From: Endozoicomonas sp. OPT23
Lineage (GTDB): Bacteria; Pseudomonadota; Gammaproteobacteria; Pseudomonadales; Endozoicomonadaceae
Reading direction: 5' to 3'
Length of the DNA: 64,000 nt
Assembly: GCF_009653635.1 (NCBI RefSeq)
Contig: NZ_PPFD01000002.1
Location: 806,001 to 870,000 of the forward strand
A model generated the notes under the pieces. It was not told where the DNA came from and did not search any database. It saw only the letters and a list, made by a program, of their open reading frames with translations. The position numbers were made by a program, and so were the translations under genes. Position 1 is the first letter of the stretch; each line of letters begins with the position of its first letter. This document shows positions 3,444 to 37,490 of this stretch, piece by piece.

Positions 3444-3878
3444 ATGACTGACAAAGAGGTTAGAGTTACTGTCAAATACGGGAAAAAACCTGATAACGGT
3501 CGGTTGGTAGAGAATAGAGGTGCGTATAGAGTGAATCCATTGAGCATTGCTGAGTATTACTTCCAGCTATCGAACGACAGCAATTTCGACGCAATCACCA
3601 AACTGTTCTGTGACAGCTCCACATTCCGTTCGGGGAAAGGAGACTTGTTTCTTGGAGTGACGGACATAATGGCTATGCAGAGAAAGCATCACGGTATGTA
3701 TAGCAGCCTGAACTGGTCCGTAAAAAGTATGGAAGAACTCAAACCGGGTGTTGTGCACTTTGAGTTTGATTTTGAAGGTATGACGCAATCCGGTGAAACT
3801 GTTAAATATTCAGGCCTGGAAGATGTTGTGGTGTTTGCAGGGCAGATACAGCATATTCAGGTTGAGATTCTGAAATAA
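3444..3878 (+). CDS. Small NTF2/SnoaL-like domain protein
   Basis: 144 residues. After a polar start the pattern SIAEYYFQLSNDSNFDAITKLF, STFRSGKGDLFLGVTDIMAM and a run of beta-like segments (HFEFDFEG, GLEDVVVFAGQIQHIQVEI) matches the cone-shaped NTF2/SnoaL-like fold. That fold serves enzymes, binding proteins and immunity proteins alike, so no reaction can be given. No signal peptide or membrane segment is seen. There is no clear ribosome binding site before ATG 3444. It ends at the bidirectional terminator shared with the converging gene at 3946. Confidence 0.65.
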   Translation: MTDKEVRVTVKYGKKPDNGRLVENRGAYRVNPLSIAEYYFQLSNDSNFDAITKLFCDSSTFRSGKGDLFLGVTDIMAMQRKHHGMYSSLNWSVKSMEELKPGVVHFEFDFEGMTQSGETVKYSGLEDVVVFAGQIQHIQVEILK

Positions 3879-32624: not shown

Positions 32625-35282
32625 CTAATCCATCACTTTTTTCAGCTCAATAAGGTAGGGAGCTGTGTCGGCATAGGAATTGAAAAAATCAAAAACAGTC
32701 CCGTTAAACGGTTCAGTTTGATCGTCGTCATGAATAATGCAGTGGTCACCACAGGATTCAATCGTAAAGTAGTGGCCGCCCTGAATGGTTGATCCGGACT
32801 GAGCGACAACACTTTGTACTTCAAAGGGGACGAATTCTTCTTTTTTAGTTGTTAGATTGTAGATGGGCAGTTCATAAACAGGATTGGATCCCAGTAGTGC
32901 TGAGGCATGTCCACTTAATTTATAAATCCGTAGATCCCCTTTGAGAGCTTTCTCCCTGTCAAAGTCAAAGAGCCGTGCATGAATTTTGACTGTTTTCAAG
33001 CTCCCTGGGTTGTCATGCGCCACTCGTTCCATCATTTCACTGTCTAGCAAAACAGGAGTTGCCTGATCAGTCCATTCAACATCCGGTATCTCTTCTTTTC
33101 GGCAGGCTAGAGCCTGGGCCAGATTGAACTTGTCATGAATAATAACCTGATGGTAAACATCGCCATCCTGTAAGAACTGTCTGCTTCTTTCGCCGTTGAC
33201 AGACACCGTCTGTTTGAACGTTTTCAATTCCTGACTATCGTCTCTAAGGCACACCAGTTCAATAAAAGGACCGATAAACTCCTGACTGTCTTGTTGTGGA
33301 TACCCTTCTTTCGGGAGCAGTTTTCTCATCAGGGATTGATAATCCTGATCCTCTTGTGACCAGCTGTCTGAGTCAGCTGCATGAGCAAATGCTCTCAGCT
33401 TCACCATAACATTTTCATGTAATTCTTCGGGTGTTTTTTTGCCTGTAGTGGGTGCCTTTCGCCTGACTCGAATCATTGCATCAGCCAGGTCAGCAAACGC
33501 TATGGCCAACTCTTTGCGTTCCTGAATCAGGTTTTTTGTCGCTTTTTTAATTCGTTCTGGTTGGTCTGGCTCCATACCAATGATGATTTGTTTCAATGCT
33601 GCGTTGGCAAAACAGGTGTTGCCAAAATTCTGGAAGCCGGGGGTAAGAATTGGTTTTACTTGCTGAACAGCAAGCGTTGCTATGGACATCTCTCGGGCAT
33701 AACGATCAACACTATATGTGCCCGTCGGTGATTGAGGGGAAAGGTGTTTCAGTTCGATTATGGATTCTGGTGTCAGGCCTCTGCCAATATAGAGTTCTCG
33801 AAAATGGCAGGCTTCTGTATAGCGAAAGTTATGGGCTTTTTCTGCCAGTAAAGGCAACAGGGTATCCATATGAGCGTAATGAGCCAGCTCGAGGGCATTC
33901 AGTCCACTTGCTGTGCAAGGTTCGCGCAGTTGATTTTCGTTGTAATACTTGATCAGCTGGCAGGCCAGTTTTTCATCGCCAGCTTTAATGGCCAGAACCA
34001 GCGGTGTTTCGTTACCAATGACATTGACTCTGGAAGAAATATTCGGACAGGTTAACAGTGCTTCCAGCTCGGATTGTTGTTTTAAATAATGATAAATAGT
34101 CTGCGCTGCTTCCTTATCCCCTTTGGTCAGAGCTGCGGTCAGTGGTGTATGGCCAATGAAATCGCGGGAAGTTTCCAGAAAAAGCTGTGCCGAATCGTGG
34201 CCTTTCAAAATACTGCTAAGAAATTTCACCCGTTCGAAATTTTTCCCGGGTGATGCTTTGCAATGTTTATAAGCATCAATGATACGAAAGAGCGTATTAC
34301 AGGAAAAGCCGGTTCTGGTTCTAAAATCAAATGGATCTGCCCCCTTTTCCAGCAGGGAGTTAGCTTGAGCCCAGTCAATGTCATTGACTGGGTTGGAAAG
34401 AAGTTCTGTCAGTTCAGTGGTTGCTGTCTGATTATACGTTTGCGGGGTGATAAGGCTTGATTCCGGGCCACTGCCAGAAGTATTGGCCACCAGAGACTGA
34501 GTGACTGATCCAGTTAATCGGGCAGGAGTCGGTTTTACGTTACGTCTGATGCCCACTTGAGCCAATTGCTTCTGGTTGAATCGGCTGAGTTTATTTTTGA
34601 GAAAACCAGCGGAAGAAAGCTGATTGTCATCTGCTGGATCCATTTCTCTGAGTTGTTCCTCCAGCTTGCTCACCCAGAGTTCAGAACAATTAACAAAAGT
34701 CATGCACGAAGATTGCTGATCTTCATCTTCATTACTGGCCAAGGCTGCCTTCAGCTCATCAAAGGAGTCCTGAAATTCTGTTTCCAGCAGATCAGGGTTG
34801 GTGTGGTAGCGGGTATCTCTGGCAACCAGTCGTTTATGTTTTTTCTGAAGCTCCACGTGTAGCTTGACCATAAGGCCGCCAGCAGAACGCTCAAGCTCTG
34901 AGAGTGCCTGTTCGGTTTCTTCAATATTCAGGTTTTTCAGATCTTCCGCTTTATCCTGAATAACGACTTTCCGCTCGGAAATACTGAGTTCTGGATTAGG
35001 GGGAGCTGCACCGGAATGTCTTTCAGATAGTTGTTCATATTGGCAGTCTGATTCTGAAGCCAGGGTATCAGCTGCCATTGCCAGTTGCTGATAGGATTCG
35101 GTCATTGGTGTGATATCACGCCCGATAAACATACCAACCATGGAATAGTGTGTAGTTAACTTGTTACTTTCAACGTAAGGCTTATAAGCACCGTAGCCAT
35201 CTTTTATCAGTTGCTGGCACTGCTCCTTCCAGTATTCACAGGTTTTGAACTGATCAATGGGGGTGTTGCTACTGGGTACCAT
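32625..35282 (-). CDS. Ankyrin-repeat protein with a eukaryotic-type ubiquitin-specific protease (USP/C19) domain
   Basis: 885 residues. Residues 1-290 are mainly helical and unrecognised. About four ankyrin-like repeats span 302-480 (FIGHTPLTAALTKGDKEAA, GNETPLVLAIKAGDEKLACQL, SGLNALELAHYAHMDTLLPLL). A USP domain fills 545-885: Cys box GFQNFGNTCFANAALKQ (Cys557), QQDSQEFIGPFIELV (663-677), His box GGHYFTIES (His837) with an acidic DDD (852-854), and the typical end APYLIELKKV. USPs remove ubiquitin in eukaryotes, so this is a strong candidate secreted effector that acts in a host cell. AAAGGATC precedes the ATG. No N-terminal signal peptide, as for type III/IV effectors. Confidence 0.88.
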   Translation of the reverse strand: MVPSSNTPIDQFKTCEYWKEQCQQLIKDGYGAYKPYVESNKLTTHYSMVGMFIGRDITPMTESYQQLAMAADTLASESDCQYEQLSERHSGAAPPNPELSISERKVVIQDKAEDLKNLNIEETEQALSELERSAGGLMVKLHVELQKKHKRLVARDTRYHTNPDLLETEFQDSFDELKAALASNEDEDQQSSCMTFVNCSELWVSKLEEQLREMDPADDNQLSSAGFLKNKLSRFNQKQLAQVGIRRNVKPTPARLTGSVTQSLVANTSGSGPESSLITPQTYNQTATTELTELLSNPVNDIDWAQANSLLEKGADPFDFRTRTGFSCNTLFRIIDAYKHCKASPGKNFERVKFLSSILKGHDSAQLFLETSRDFIGHTPLTAALTKGDKEAAQTIYHYLKQQSELEALLTCPNISSRVNVIGNETPLVLAIKAGDEKLACQLIKYYNENQLREPCTASGLNALELAHYAHMDTLLPLLAEKAHNFRYTEACHFRELYIGRGLTPESIIELKHLSPQSPTGTYSVDRYAREMSIATLAVQQVKPILTPGFQNFGNTCFANAALKQIIIGMEPDQPERIKKATKNLIQERKELAIAFADLADAMIRVRRKAPTTGKKTPEELHENVMVKLRAFAHAADSDSWSQEDQDYQSLMRKLLPKEGYPQQDSQEFIGPFIELVCLRDDSQELKTFKQTVSVNGERSRQFLQDGDVYHQVIIHDKFNLAQALACRKEEIPDVEWTDQATPVLLDSEMMERVAHDNPGSLKTVKIHARLFDFDREKALKGDLRIYKLSGHASALLGSNPVYELPIYNLTTKKEEFVPFEVQSVVAQSGSTIQGGHYFTIESCGDHCIIHDDDQTEPFNGTVFDFFNSYADTAPYLIELKKVMD

Positions 35283-35335: not shown

Positions 35336-35365
35336 TTGACACATCCCTGTATTGCCACTGAAAAT
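35336..35365 (+). promoter_or_regulatory. Candidate sigma-70 promoter for thrS
   Basis: A consensus -35 TTGACA (35336-35341) is followed after 18 nt by GAAAAT (35360-35365, 4 of 6 matches to the -10). Transcription would begin near 35372 and give a leader of about 195 nt containing all three tRNA-Thr-like hairpins. A degenerate copy of the repeat unit (TTGCCACTGAAAA, 35352-35364) overlaps the promoter. Confidence 0.5.
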
Positions 35366-35416
35366 ATCCCTTTTACTCCCCACGATTTTCATCACCTCAA
35401 CCGTGAGAAAATCCAT

Positions 35417-35512
35417 GCAACCCCTGGTATGGGTTGCCACTGGTAAAACGGCTCACAACCCCTGGTATGGGTTGAATGAGCAAAATAACAAGCAGCCCCC
35501 TGTACGGGTTGC
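35417..35512 (+). promoter_or_regulatory. Three tandem hairpins resembling the tRNA-Thr anticodon arm; candidate thrS translational operator
   Basis: Hairpin 1: 7-bp stem 35417-35423/35431-35437, loop CTGGTAT. Hairpin 2: 6-bp stem 35456-35461/35469-35474, same loop. Hairpin 3: 7-bp stem 35492-35498/35506-35512 (one G-U), loop CCTGTAC. Loop positions 3-5 correspond to anticodon 34-36 and read GGU, GGU and UGU, all threonine anticodons, with A at 37. In E. coli ThrRS represses its own mRNA by binding such anticodon-arm mimics upstream of the ribosome binding site. Here the last hairpin ends about 40 nt before the AGGA of thrS. The repeats are spaced 37-38 nt. Confidence 0.65.
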
Positions 35513-35567
35513 CACTGAAATAGAACTCAGATGCCTATAGCGCATCAAAAAGTAGGAATTTTTTATC

Positions 35568-37490
35568 ATGCCTGTTATTACGCTTCCCGATGGCAGCAAG
35601 CGCGAGTTTGCTGACGCAGTATCTGTTATGGAAGTCGCCATGGACATTGGTCCGGGCCTTGCCAAAGCCACTCTGGCTGGCCGCATTAACGGTGAGCTGG
35701 TGGACGCCAGCACTAAAATTACAGAAGACTCAGAGATGTCGATCATCACCGCCCGTGATGAAGAAGGCGTAGACGTAATCCGTCACTCCACCGCACACTT
35801 GCTGGCAATGGCTACTCAGGACTTGTTTCCTGGTGCTCAGGTCACTATCGGCCCTGTTATCGACAATGGCTTCTACTACGACTTCTCCTACGAGCGTGCT
35901 TTCAATATGGAAGACGTCGAGAAGATCGAAAAGCGCATGGGTGAGCTGGCCAAGCAGGACATTAACATCGAACGTGCGGTGATGAGCCGTAACGAAGCGG
36001 TTGAAGCGTTCAAGGCTCTGGGTGAAGAGTACAAGGTCGAGATCATCAACGACCTGCCTGAAGGCGAAGACATTTCCGTTTACCGTCAGGGTGAGTGGAT
36101 GGACCTGTGTCGTGGTCCTCACGTACCTTCTACCGGCAAACTAAAAGCATTCAAACTGATGCGTGTTGCCGGTGCATACTGGCGTGGTGACTCCAATAAT
36201 GAAATGCTGACCCGTATCTACGGTACTGCGTGGGAAGACAAGAAAGCCCTGAAGGGCTACCTGCATCGTCTGGAAGAAGCGGAAAAGCGTGATCACCGTA
36301 AACTCGGTAAACGCCTTGACCTGTTCCATATGCAGGAAGAAGCACCGGGCATGGTGTTCTGGCATCCAAACGGCTGGGCTATTTACACTGAGCTGGAAAA
36401 GTACATGCGTCAGCAGCAGATTGCCCGTGGTTATCAGGAAATCAAAACACCGCTGCTGGTGGACCGTTCCCTGTGGGAAAAATCCGGTCACTGGGACAAG
36501 TACAGTGATGACATGTTCACCACTAACTCTGAAGATAAGGACATCGCGGTTAAGCCGATGAACTGCCCTTGTCACGTTCAGGTCTTCAATCAGGGCCTGA
36601 AGAGCTACCGTGATCTGCCTCTGCGTCTGGCGGAGTTTGGTGCCTGTCACCGTAATGAAGCATCCGGCGCCCTGCACGGCATCATGCGTGTTCGTGGTTT
36701 TGTTCAGGACGATGCCCATATCTTCGTCACTGAGAGCCAGATTCAGCAGGAAGTGTCCGACTTTATCGACATGCTGCACGATGTTTATGCCGATTTCGGT
36801 TTTGACCGTGAAAATATGCTCTATAAGCTGTCTACCCGTCCGGAAAAACGCGTAGGTTCCGACGAAGTTTGGGATAAAGCCGAAAAAGCATTGGCAGAAG
36901 CGATGGACGCTCAGGGTCTTCCTTGGGAAGAATTACCGGGTGAAGGTGCTTTCTACGGACCTAAAATAGAATTTTCCCTGAAAGACTGTATTGGCCGAGT
37001 ATGGCAATGTGGCACCATGCAGGTAGACTTCTCCATGCCGGGTCGTCTGGGCGCTGAATACGTCGATGAAAATGGCGAGCGTCAGACTCCGGTAATGCTC
37101 CACAGAGCTACTCTGGGTTCCTTTGAACGCTTTATAGGCATCCTGATCGAGCACTTCGAAGGTGCCATGCCGACATGGCTTGCTCCAAAGCAGGTTTCGA
37201 TCCTCAATATTACCGATCGTCAGGGTGAATATGCCCGCGAATTGGAAAAAATATTGACCGAAAACAGCTTTAGAGTGAAAGCGGACTTGAGAAACGAGAA
37301 AATCGGCTTTAAAATCCGCGAGCACACCTTGAATAAGGTGCCTTATCTTATCGTTATCGGTGATAAGGAAATGGAAAACAGAACCGTTGCCGTTCGTACC
37401 CGTACAGGTGAAGATCTGGGTACCATGTCTGTAGAGACATTTGTAGAACGTCTTGCAGCGGATATCAGCAAGCGTGGCCGTACTGCGTAA
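35568..37490 (+). CDS. thrS: Threonyl-tRNA synthetase
   Basis: 640 residues, normal length. ThrRS charges tRNA-Thr and edits mis-made Ser-tRNA-Thr. The TGS domain (1-60, [11 protein letters not shown]) is followed by the editing domain ([10 protein letters not shown] with its His pair), the class II catalytic core ([10 protein letters not shown] motif with zinc Cys, [21 protein letters not shown] motif 2, [13 protein letters not shown] motif 3) and the anticodon-binding domain ([20 protein letters not shown]). AGGA lies ahead of ATG 35568. It heads thrS-infC-rpmI-rplT as in E. coli. The leader hairpins suggest autoregulation by mimicry of tRNA-Thr. Confidence 0.98.

Follow-up and report, generated by a model that had tools for sequence, protein, structure and literature searches.

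In E. coli, the thrS operator is bound by threonyl-tRNA synthetase (ThrRS) through mimics of the anticodon loop, and ribosome binding is thereby hindered (PMC9976931, PMC3858243). Free ThrRS on two leader hairpins is described as blocking the 30S subunit at a split ribosome site (PMC3858243), and a change of the anticodon-like triplet is reported to switch control to MetRS (PMC9976931). In the window, by which we mean the whole 64-kb stretch of DNA that was analysed, three anticodon-arm-like hairpins stand in tandem in the leader of thrS, and the comparative analysis makes it very probable that this leader is a ThrRS-binding autoregulatory mRNA operator. The putative operator is of the E. coli kind in an expanded version, three tandem copies being an unusual form. 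Given the homology to E. coli set out below, the same ThrRS control should hold here, and we infer binding, repression and an effect of copy number.

All three hairpins lie on the + strand. H1, GCAACCC[CTGGTAT]GGGTTGC (35417-35437), is an anticodon-arm mimic with a 7-bp stem and a GGU triplet; H2, CAACCC[CTGGTAT]GGGTTG (35456-35474), also presents GGU on a stem of 6 bp; and H3, GCAGCCC[CCTGTAC]GGGTTGC (35492-35512), presents UGU on a stem of 7 bp that includes one G.U pair. H1 and H2 share an identical 19-nt stretch, the spacing from hairpin to hairpin is 38 nt (H1 to H2) and 37 nt (H2 to H3), and the linkers separating the units are 7 nt long. A sequence-only reading of this DNA had described three tandem hairpins 37-38 nt apart with 7-nt loops and stems of 6-7 bp, the threonine anticodons GGU, GGU and UGU at loop positions 34-36, each followed by A37, and a C at position 33 of the third loop, all of which we confirmed. 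C33 of H3 deviates from the U-turn base and is a lineage feature, being found in the H3 loops of 17 of the 21 leaders from the two genera with triple units.

The units resemble that of E. coli, gtgatct[TTCGTGT]gggtcac CACTGC, in their location in the thrS leader, the 7-bp stem, the 7-nt NGU loop, the CACTG 3' flank and the outer stem. CACTG follows H1 at 35438-35442 and H3 at 35513-35517 (both +). In its predicted fold the E. coli unit consists of the arm and an outer stem, with a bulge of 3 nt (CAC) between them. H1 with its flanks (35413-35443, +) can be written in the same way as CCA-U-[arm]-CAC-UGG, with a possible outer CCA/UGG stem; H3 so written has an outer stem of two pairs (CA/UG), and H2 has a five-pair outer stem, GCTCA/TGAGC (35451-35481, +), with a short 3' bulge.

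The array was said to lie between a TTGACA promoter and thrS, and this order is borne out, the promoter being a sigma-70-like site (TTGACA-N18-GAAAAT, 35336-35365, +) recognised by consensus match only (10/12), with 0.6 sites of such quality expected per shuffle. The sequence TTGCCACTGAAA, the end of H3 with its flank, recurs without a hairpin at the promoter-like -10 region (35352-35363). A 5' hairpin, GATTTTC...GAAAATC (35384-35413, +), seen in predicted folds and in the sequences of relatives, adjoins H1; it is also present in leaders L017 and L022-L025, has longer loops in L049 of the sister genus and is absent from leaders L020-L021. The interval from H3 to the start codon holds a small hairpin, GATGC[CTATAGC]GCATC (35530-35546, +), which is present in two of four folds and pushes the proximal unit further from thrS, and genus members L022, L023 and L025 have other inserts there. 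The thrS gene itself (35568-37490, +) encodes a full-length ThrRS of 640 aa in which TGS, SAD, catalytic core and anticodon-binding (HGTP_anticodon) domains were found; it thus has both the N-terminal and the anticodon-binding domains of an E. coli-type operator enzyme. Residues 1-636 align with the full-length ThrRS of structure 1qf6, which we take to be the E. coli enzyme. Adjoining thrS is a divergent, eukaryote-like ORF of 885 aa (32625-35282) with a match to ubiquitin carboxyl-terminal hydrolase and an ankyrin match below threshold.

Homology of the units was judged with two models. R1 was built partly from sequences later counted with it, including units of the window's family, and R2, a covariance model built from 26 units without that family and without E. 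coli, served as the independent check. With R2 the scores were 38.3 bits for H1, 34.2 bits for E. coli domain 2 and 28.8 bits for H3. By sequence and structure alike, H1 and H3 are homologues of E. coli domain 2, and H3 is its counterpart by leader order and 3' flank. H2 is not recognised by R2 (9.9 bits, E 1.2), R1 giving it 28.9 bits; as it is identical to H1 over the 19 nt, the best reading is that H2 is a copy of the unit that has diverged. The leader contains NGU anticodon-arm-like hairpins, and where an operator of the E. coli type calls for at least two such arms it has three by sequence. Curated RNA families did not cover the element: in six thrS loci including that of E. coli, searched against Rfam 15 at E<=1, no match overlapped the unit and three matches fell elsewhere in the loci. 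The unit at 553-588 of L092, like other thrS leaders, has no Rfam 15 overlap despite the wide spread and good covariation of the element. A search of the locus against plasmids gave no match.

The arms are not expected from composition. The 285-nt leader has three hairpins whose loop reads NNNGTAN and whose stem has 6 bp or more, whereas among 20,000 dinucleotide shuffles of the leader 19,877 had none, 123 had one and none had two. Both strands of the 64-kb window contain eight hairpins with NNNGTAN loops, three of them in the thrS leader. Stems of 6 bp with any 7-nt loop also number three in the leader, but three or more arose in 86 of 3,000 shuffles, which is not unusual; it is therefore the loop triplet that sets the leader apart, not the 6-bp stems as such.

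The occurrence of the unit was followed in four sets of genomes. The family set comprised 35 of 37 genomes (G013 and G022 lacked a full-length thrS match). Of 197 leaders in all, the 11 that did not start at a usual start codon were kept. By R1 at E<=0.001, the window's genus (g1) has three units in 10 of 10 leaders and the sister genus (g5) in 8 of 11, the other three having two units and a weak third (E 0.06-0.2). Among the remaining 14 family leaders, L060 has three units, L057, L058, L059, L061 and L063 have two, L062, L064, L173 and L174 have one, and L065, L175, L176 and L177 have none. In L060 (genus g8) the third unit, at 3601-3623, is distant, about 200 nt before thrS. Outside the family, in the 81 order-level genomes used of 107 with a thrS match (the 26 left out being mostly the lowest-scoring, and genomes with two thrS copies being represented by the best copy only), 72 leaders have one unit and 9 have no match (R1, E<=0.001). 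The named set, the best 80 of 584 loci, has the unit in 49 (two copies in L093, which belongs to the window's family, and one in each of the rest) and no match in 31. At class level, with E<=1e-4 and strict filters, 51 of 185 genomes have the unit and 134 have no match, and more than one unit is found at this threshold only in the window's genome. In each of the 50 other class-level genomes with a match, the best match begins 39-51 nt ahead of thrS. Presence before thrS in relatives had been named as a check, and the unit is there throughout the window's genus and not universal beyond it. In a ThrRS tree of 39 rows the 30 family rows group together (support 98/97); the copy numbers marked on this tree include weak units and units seen by sequence alone (L057 and L058 as three, L064 as two). 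The tree is silent on where the array arose because five family leaders (L173-L177), which come from three genera and have at most one unit, were left out.

Searches of whole genomes scored only part of the first-look candidates (150 of 1266-1807 per genome in the genus search, mostly 37 in the class search), so that weak sites elsewhere could be missed. Among the candidates scored, 30 of 31 genus matches at E<=0.002 sit at thrS. The sole exception (G001:C254:7786-7821) is antisense within an unrelated 686-aa ORF and has the loop TTGGCAT, and we judged it a chance match. Weaker genus-level matches are L264 (E 0.10) and L265 (E 0.17). The proposal of an E. coli-type autoregulatory operator in three copies is supported by the R2 homology together with matches at thrS in genus and class.

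No three-arm tandem was seen outside the family in the order, named and class samples, and second arms occur there in some leaders. With filters off, a scan of about 250 nt upstream of thrS in 50 class genomes gave a second arm at E<=0.001 in L382 (G181) and weak second arms in a few more. A plain scan gave tandems of two arms, spaced by 33-36 nt, in L354, L360 and L382, and L186 (G044) has a second unit adjoining the first. Hence second tandem arms arose elsewhere too, two tandem arms outside the family being found in G044 (L186), G181, G188 and G328. The L360 tandem has gcagtct[TGCGTAT]ggactgt upstream of gcggcct[TGCGTAC]aggtcgc CACTG. An upstream NGU hairpin was found in 20 of 110 non-family leaders, 11 of them named Pseudomonas (mean in 100 rounds of shuffling 4.0, maximum 9), a set that may include E. 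coli and the family member L093 and in which many of the 20 are related Pseudomonas leaders and not independent. In Pseudomonas leaders (L149, L156, L160, L166, L169 and others) the upstream NGU hairpin, for example cctgcc[ACTGTGA]ggcagg, precedes the domain-2 loop by about 58 nt and may correspond to E. coli domain 4. One of the order-level genomes, G042, carries a tRNA-Val (GAC) gene (L088 3578-3654) ahead of thrS and in the same orientation.

Operation of the putative operator can be pictured in a few steps. ThrRS in excess over tRNA-Thr would bind the loops via its anticodon-binding domain, and the bound enzyme would exclude the ribosome from the thrS start, either directly or by occupying its docking stretch; tRNA-Thr would compete for ThrRS and so relieve repression. 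Tandem copies would bind the dimeric enzyme with higher avidity or steepen the response. The distance from the beginning of the H3 unit to the start codon is 82 nt, compared with 39-51 nt in the 50 other class-level genomes and 48 nt for the proximal unit of E. coli; in the two genera with triple units the proximal unit starts at 54-96 nt. As the H3 unit is so far upstream, with the small hairpin between, it is uncertain whether the enzyme simply occludes the ribosome site. At this distance the bound enzyme might still block docking, or might work through a standby site or through the stability of the mRNA. ThrRS could accordingly bind the array with mRNA decay or processing as the outcome in place of ribosome exclusion. 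Within the operator reading we give this outcome a minor share and consider it rather unlikely: the long interval favours it, as does the presence of the small hairpin and of the 5' hairpin, but the E. coli ribosome site is itself described as split and as extending upstream of the hairpin (PMC3858243).

Predicted folds raise a further version of ThrRS control. When pairing distance was limited to 45 nt all three hairpins formed, with pair probabilities of 0.87-1.0; under such local pairing the outer-stem pair probabilities were 0.86-1.0 for H2, 0.11-0.44 for H1 and 0.01-0.1 for H3. With unlimited distance the predicted leader fold paired H1 with H3 in a duplex of 18 pairs that includes bases 35-38 of both loops, and this fold (-57.7 versus -53.0 kcal/mol for the local fold) is favoured by 4 to 5 kcal/mol. 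The array might then be a two-state RNA switch, with three arms exposed for ThrRS in one state and, in the other, H1 and H3 exchanging arms such that two of the three sites would be hidden and H2 alone left. All 21 leaders from the two triple-unit genera allow mutual pairing between bases 35-38 of H1 and those of H3. Against the duplex, cross-pairs between H1 and H3 are kept in 263 of 294 cases versus 286 of 294 for local pairs, the duplex appears in the predicted folds of only 7 of the 21 leaders, and arm exchange is possible for any two copies of a palindrome. We regard the switch as improbable.

Covariation argues for a structured RNA. Over 52 units the nine-pair structure has 97.0% of its cells paired versus 82.0% in shuffles and 75 double-change cells versus 20.5, and 0 of 500 shuffles reached the alignment on either measure. 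Among 364 stem cells on the sense strand 57 are G.U and 3 are A.C, and pairing is therefore kept on the RNA (sense) strand. The H2 set taken alone (18 sequences) is weaker: double-change cells number 7 versus 2.9, with 5 of 500 shuffles as high, and two of ten pairs are changed on both sides versus 1.5, with 223 of 500 shuffles showing as many. The loops of alignment A1 were chosen for G35-U36, and loop conservation accordingly rests only on units picked without a loop rule (a 7-nt loop, at least 6 of 7 pairs and CAC after the stem). In distinct units so picked G35 is present in 27/27 from the family, 61/63 from the order and 37/38 from the named genomes, and U36 in 27/27, 60/63 and 37/38; pooled over the three sets, 125 of 128 distinct units have G35 and 124 have U36. 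The four non-NGU rows among the 128 have unlike stems and look like chance hairpins. Threonine identity of the tRNA resides partly in the anticodon (PMC9976931), so the G35-U36 pattern is that expected of a ThrRS target. The comparison alone suggests that loop bases 35 and 36 are read, and not base 34.

These data bear on a DNA-level operator, in which the palindromes would be transcription factor sites near the thrS promoter. Such sites could look like the dyads seen here, which are nearly perfect, recur at intervals of 38 and 37 nt and follow the promoter-like site. However, the G.U excess places the pairing on the RNA, the G35-U36 loops and the nearly fixed 3' CACTG flank are both asymmetric, and the distance before thrS is nearly fixed in all 50 class-level genomes with a match; we consider a DNA operator very unlikely.

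Returning to the RNA operator, the variable base 34 leaves one earlier suggestion unsupported, that the array mimics two isoacceptors and in this differs from E. coli. All four letters (G, T, C and A) occur at base 34 among relatives, with AGU in H3 of L017 and CGU in H2 of the sister genus, and since it drifts freely the UGU of H3 needs no special explanation. The genome has two tRNA-Thr genes found by pattern search, GGU and UGU, and at the sensitivity of that search no tRNA-Thr(CGU) gene was found. The H3 stem is unlike that of the genome's own tRNA-Thr(UGU), ACTGA/TCAGT. E. coli moreover has both CGU (domain 2) and UGU (the upstream hairpin with an 8-nt loop, presumably domain 4). The likeness of ACCC/GGGT to the tRNA-Thr(GGU) stem, CACCC/GGGTG, is real in this leader and is not what is conserved, because the H1 stem of the closest relative is GCAATCC/GGATTGC.

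Control by a leader peptide is very unlikely. An ORF from the ATG at 35415, in the H1 flank, stays open through the array for 41 codons, three of them Thr, and 13 of the 21 leaders from the triple-unit genera have an ATG at this position. Within the window's genus, however, 8 of 10 genomes lack the ORF, and elsewhere its ends differ; its first residues simply read the conserved hairpin, and no terminator-like site was found on the + strand between 35200 and 35700. A T-box or other transcription attenuator was rejected on the same lack of a terminator-like site in that interval and the lack of any Rfam match in the window at the gathering score.

The sequence-only reading had offered a dispersed palindrome family, matching by accident, as its alternative, and this, at the sensitivity of the searches, we reject as scarcely credible: although 142 genome sites match the stem pattern at <=2 mismatches (control pattern 87), exact CAACCC-N7-GGGTTG, searched for across the 4.9-Mb genome as that reading had proposed, occurs at H1 and H2 only and at no unrelated gene, and the model matches lie at thrS (30/31 in the genus at E<=0.002, 50/50 in the class), which argues against a REP-like element that happened to land there.

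In the open-licence papers searched, none on Endozoicomonas thrS was found, and titles and abstracts among the matches listed describe no three-arm thrS operator. As far as these searches reach, the unit is specific to thrS across many Gammaproteobacteria (51/185 genomes at the strict threshold), and it matched no curated RNA family here. Homologous genes preceded by one, two and three operator arms form a natural series in which the dependence of autoregulation, in its strength and its steepness, on copy number and spacing can be tested.

Set beside known systems, the putative operator differs from that of E. coli mainly in layout. E. coli is described as having two unlike domains round a single-stranded stretch (PMC3858243, PMC9976931), whereas here three near-identical units follow one another; the proximal arm is not directly upstream of the Shine-Dalgarno sequence, and the arms are separated by 7-nt linkers and not by a long single-stranded stretch. 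In other Gammaproteobacteria the thrS leaders have the same unit, mostly as one strong copy and in some with a second arm, versus three here. Yeast AspRS and other synthetases likewise are described as binding their own mRNA via an anticodon-like element (PMC9976931, PMC6542539), but the yeast system is eukaryotic and presumably has no sequence relation to this one. The principle is already known from E. coli, and the three-copy tandem form is the unusual part.
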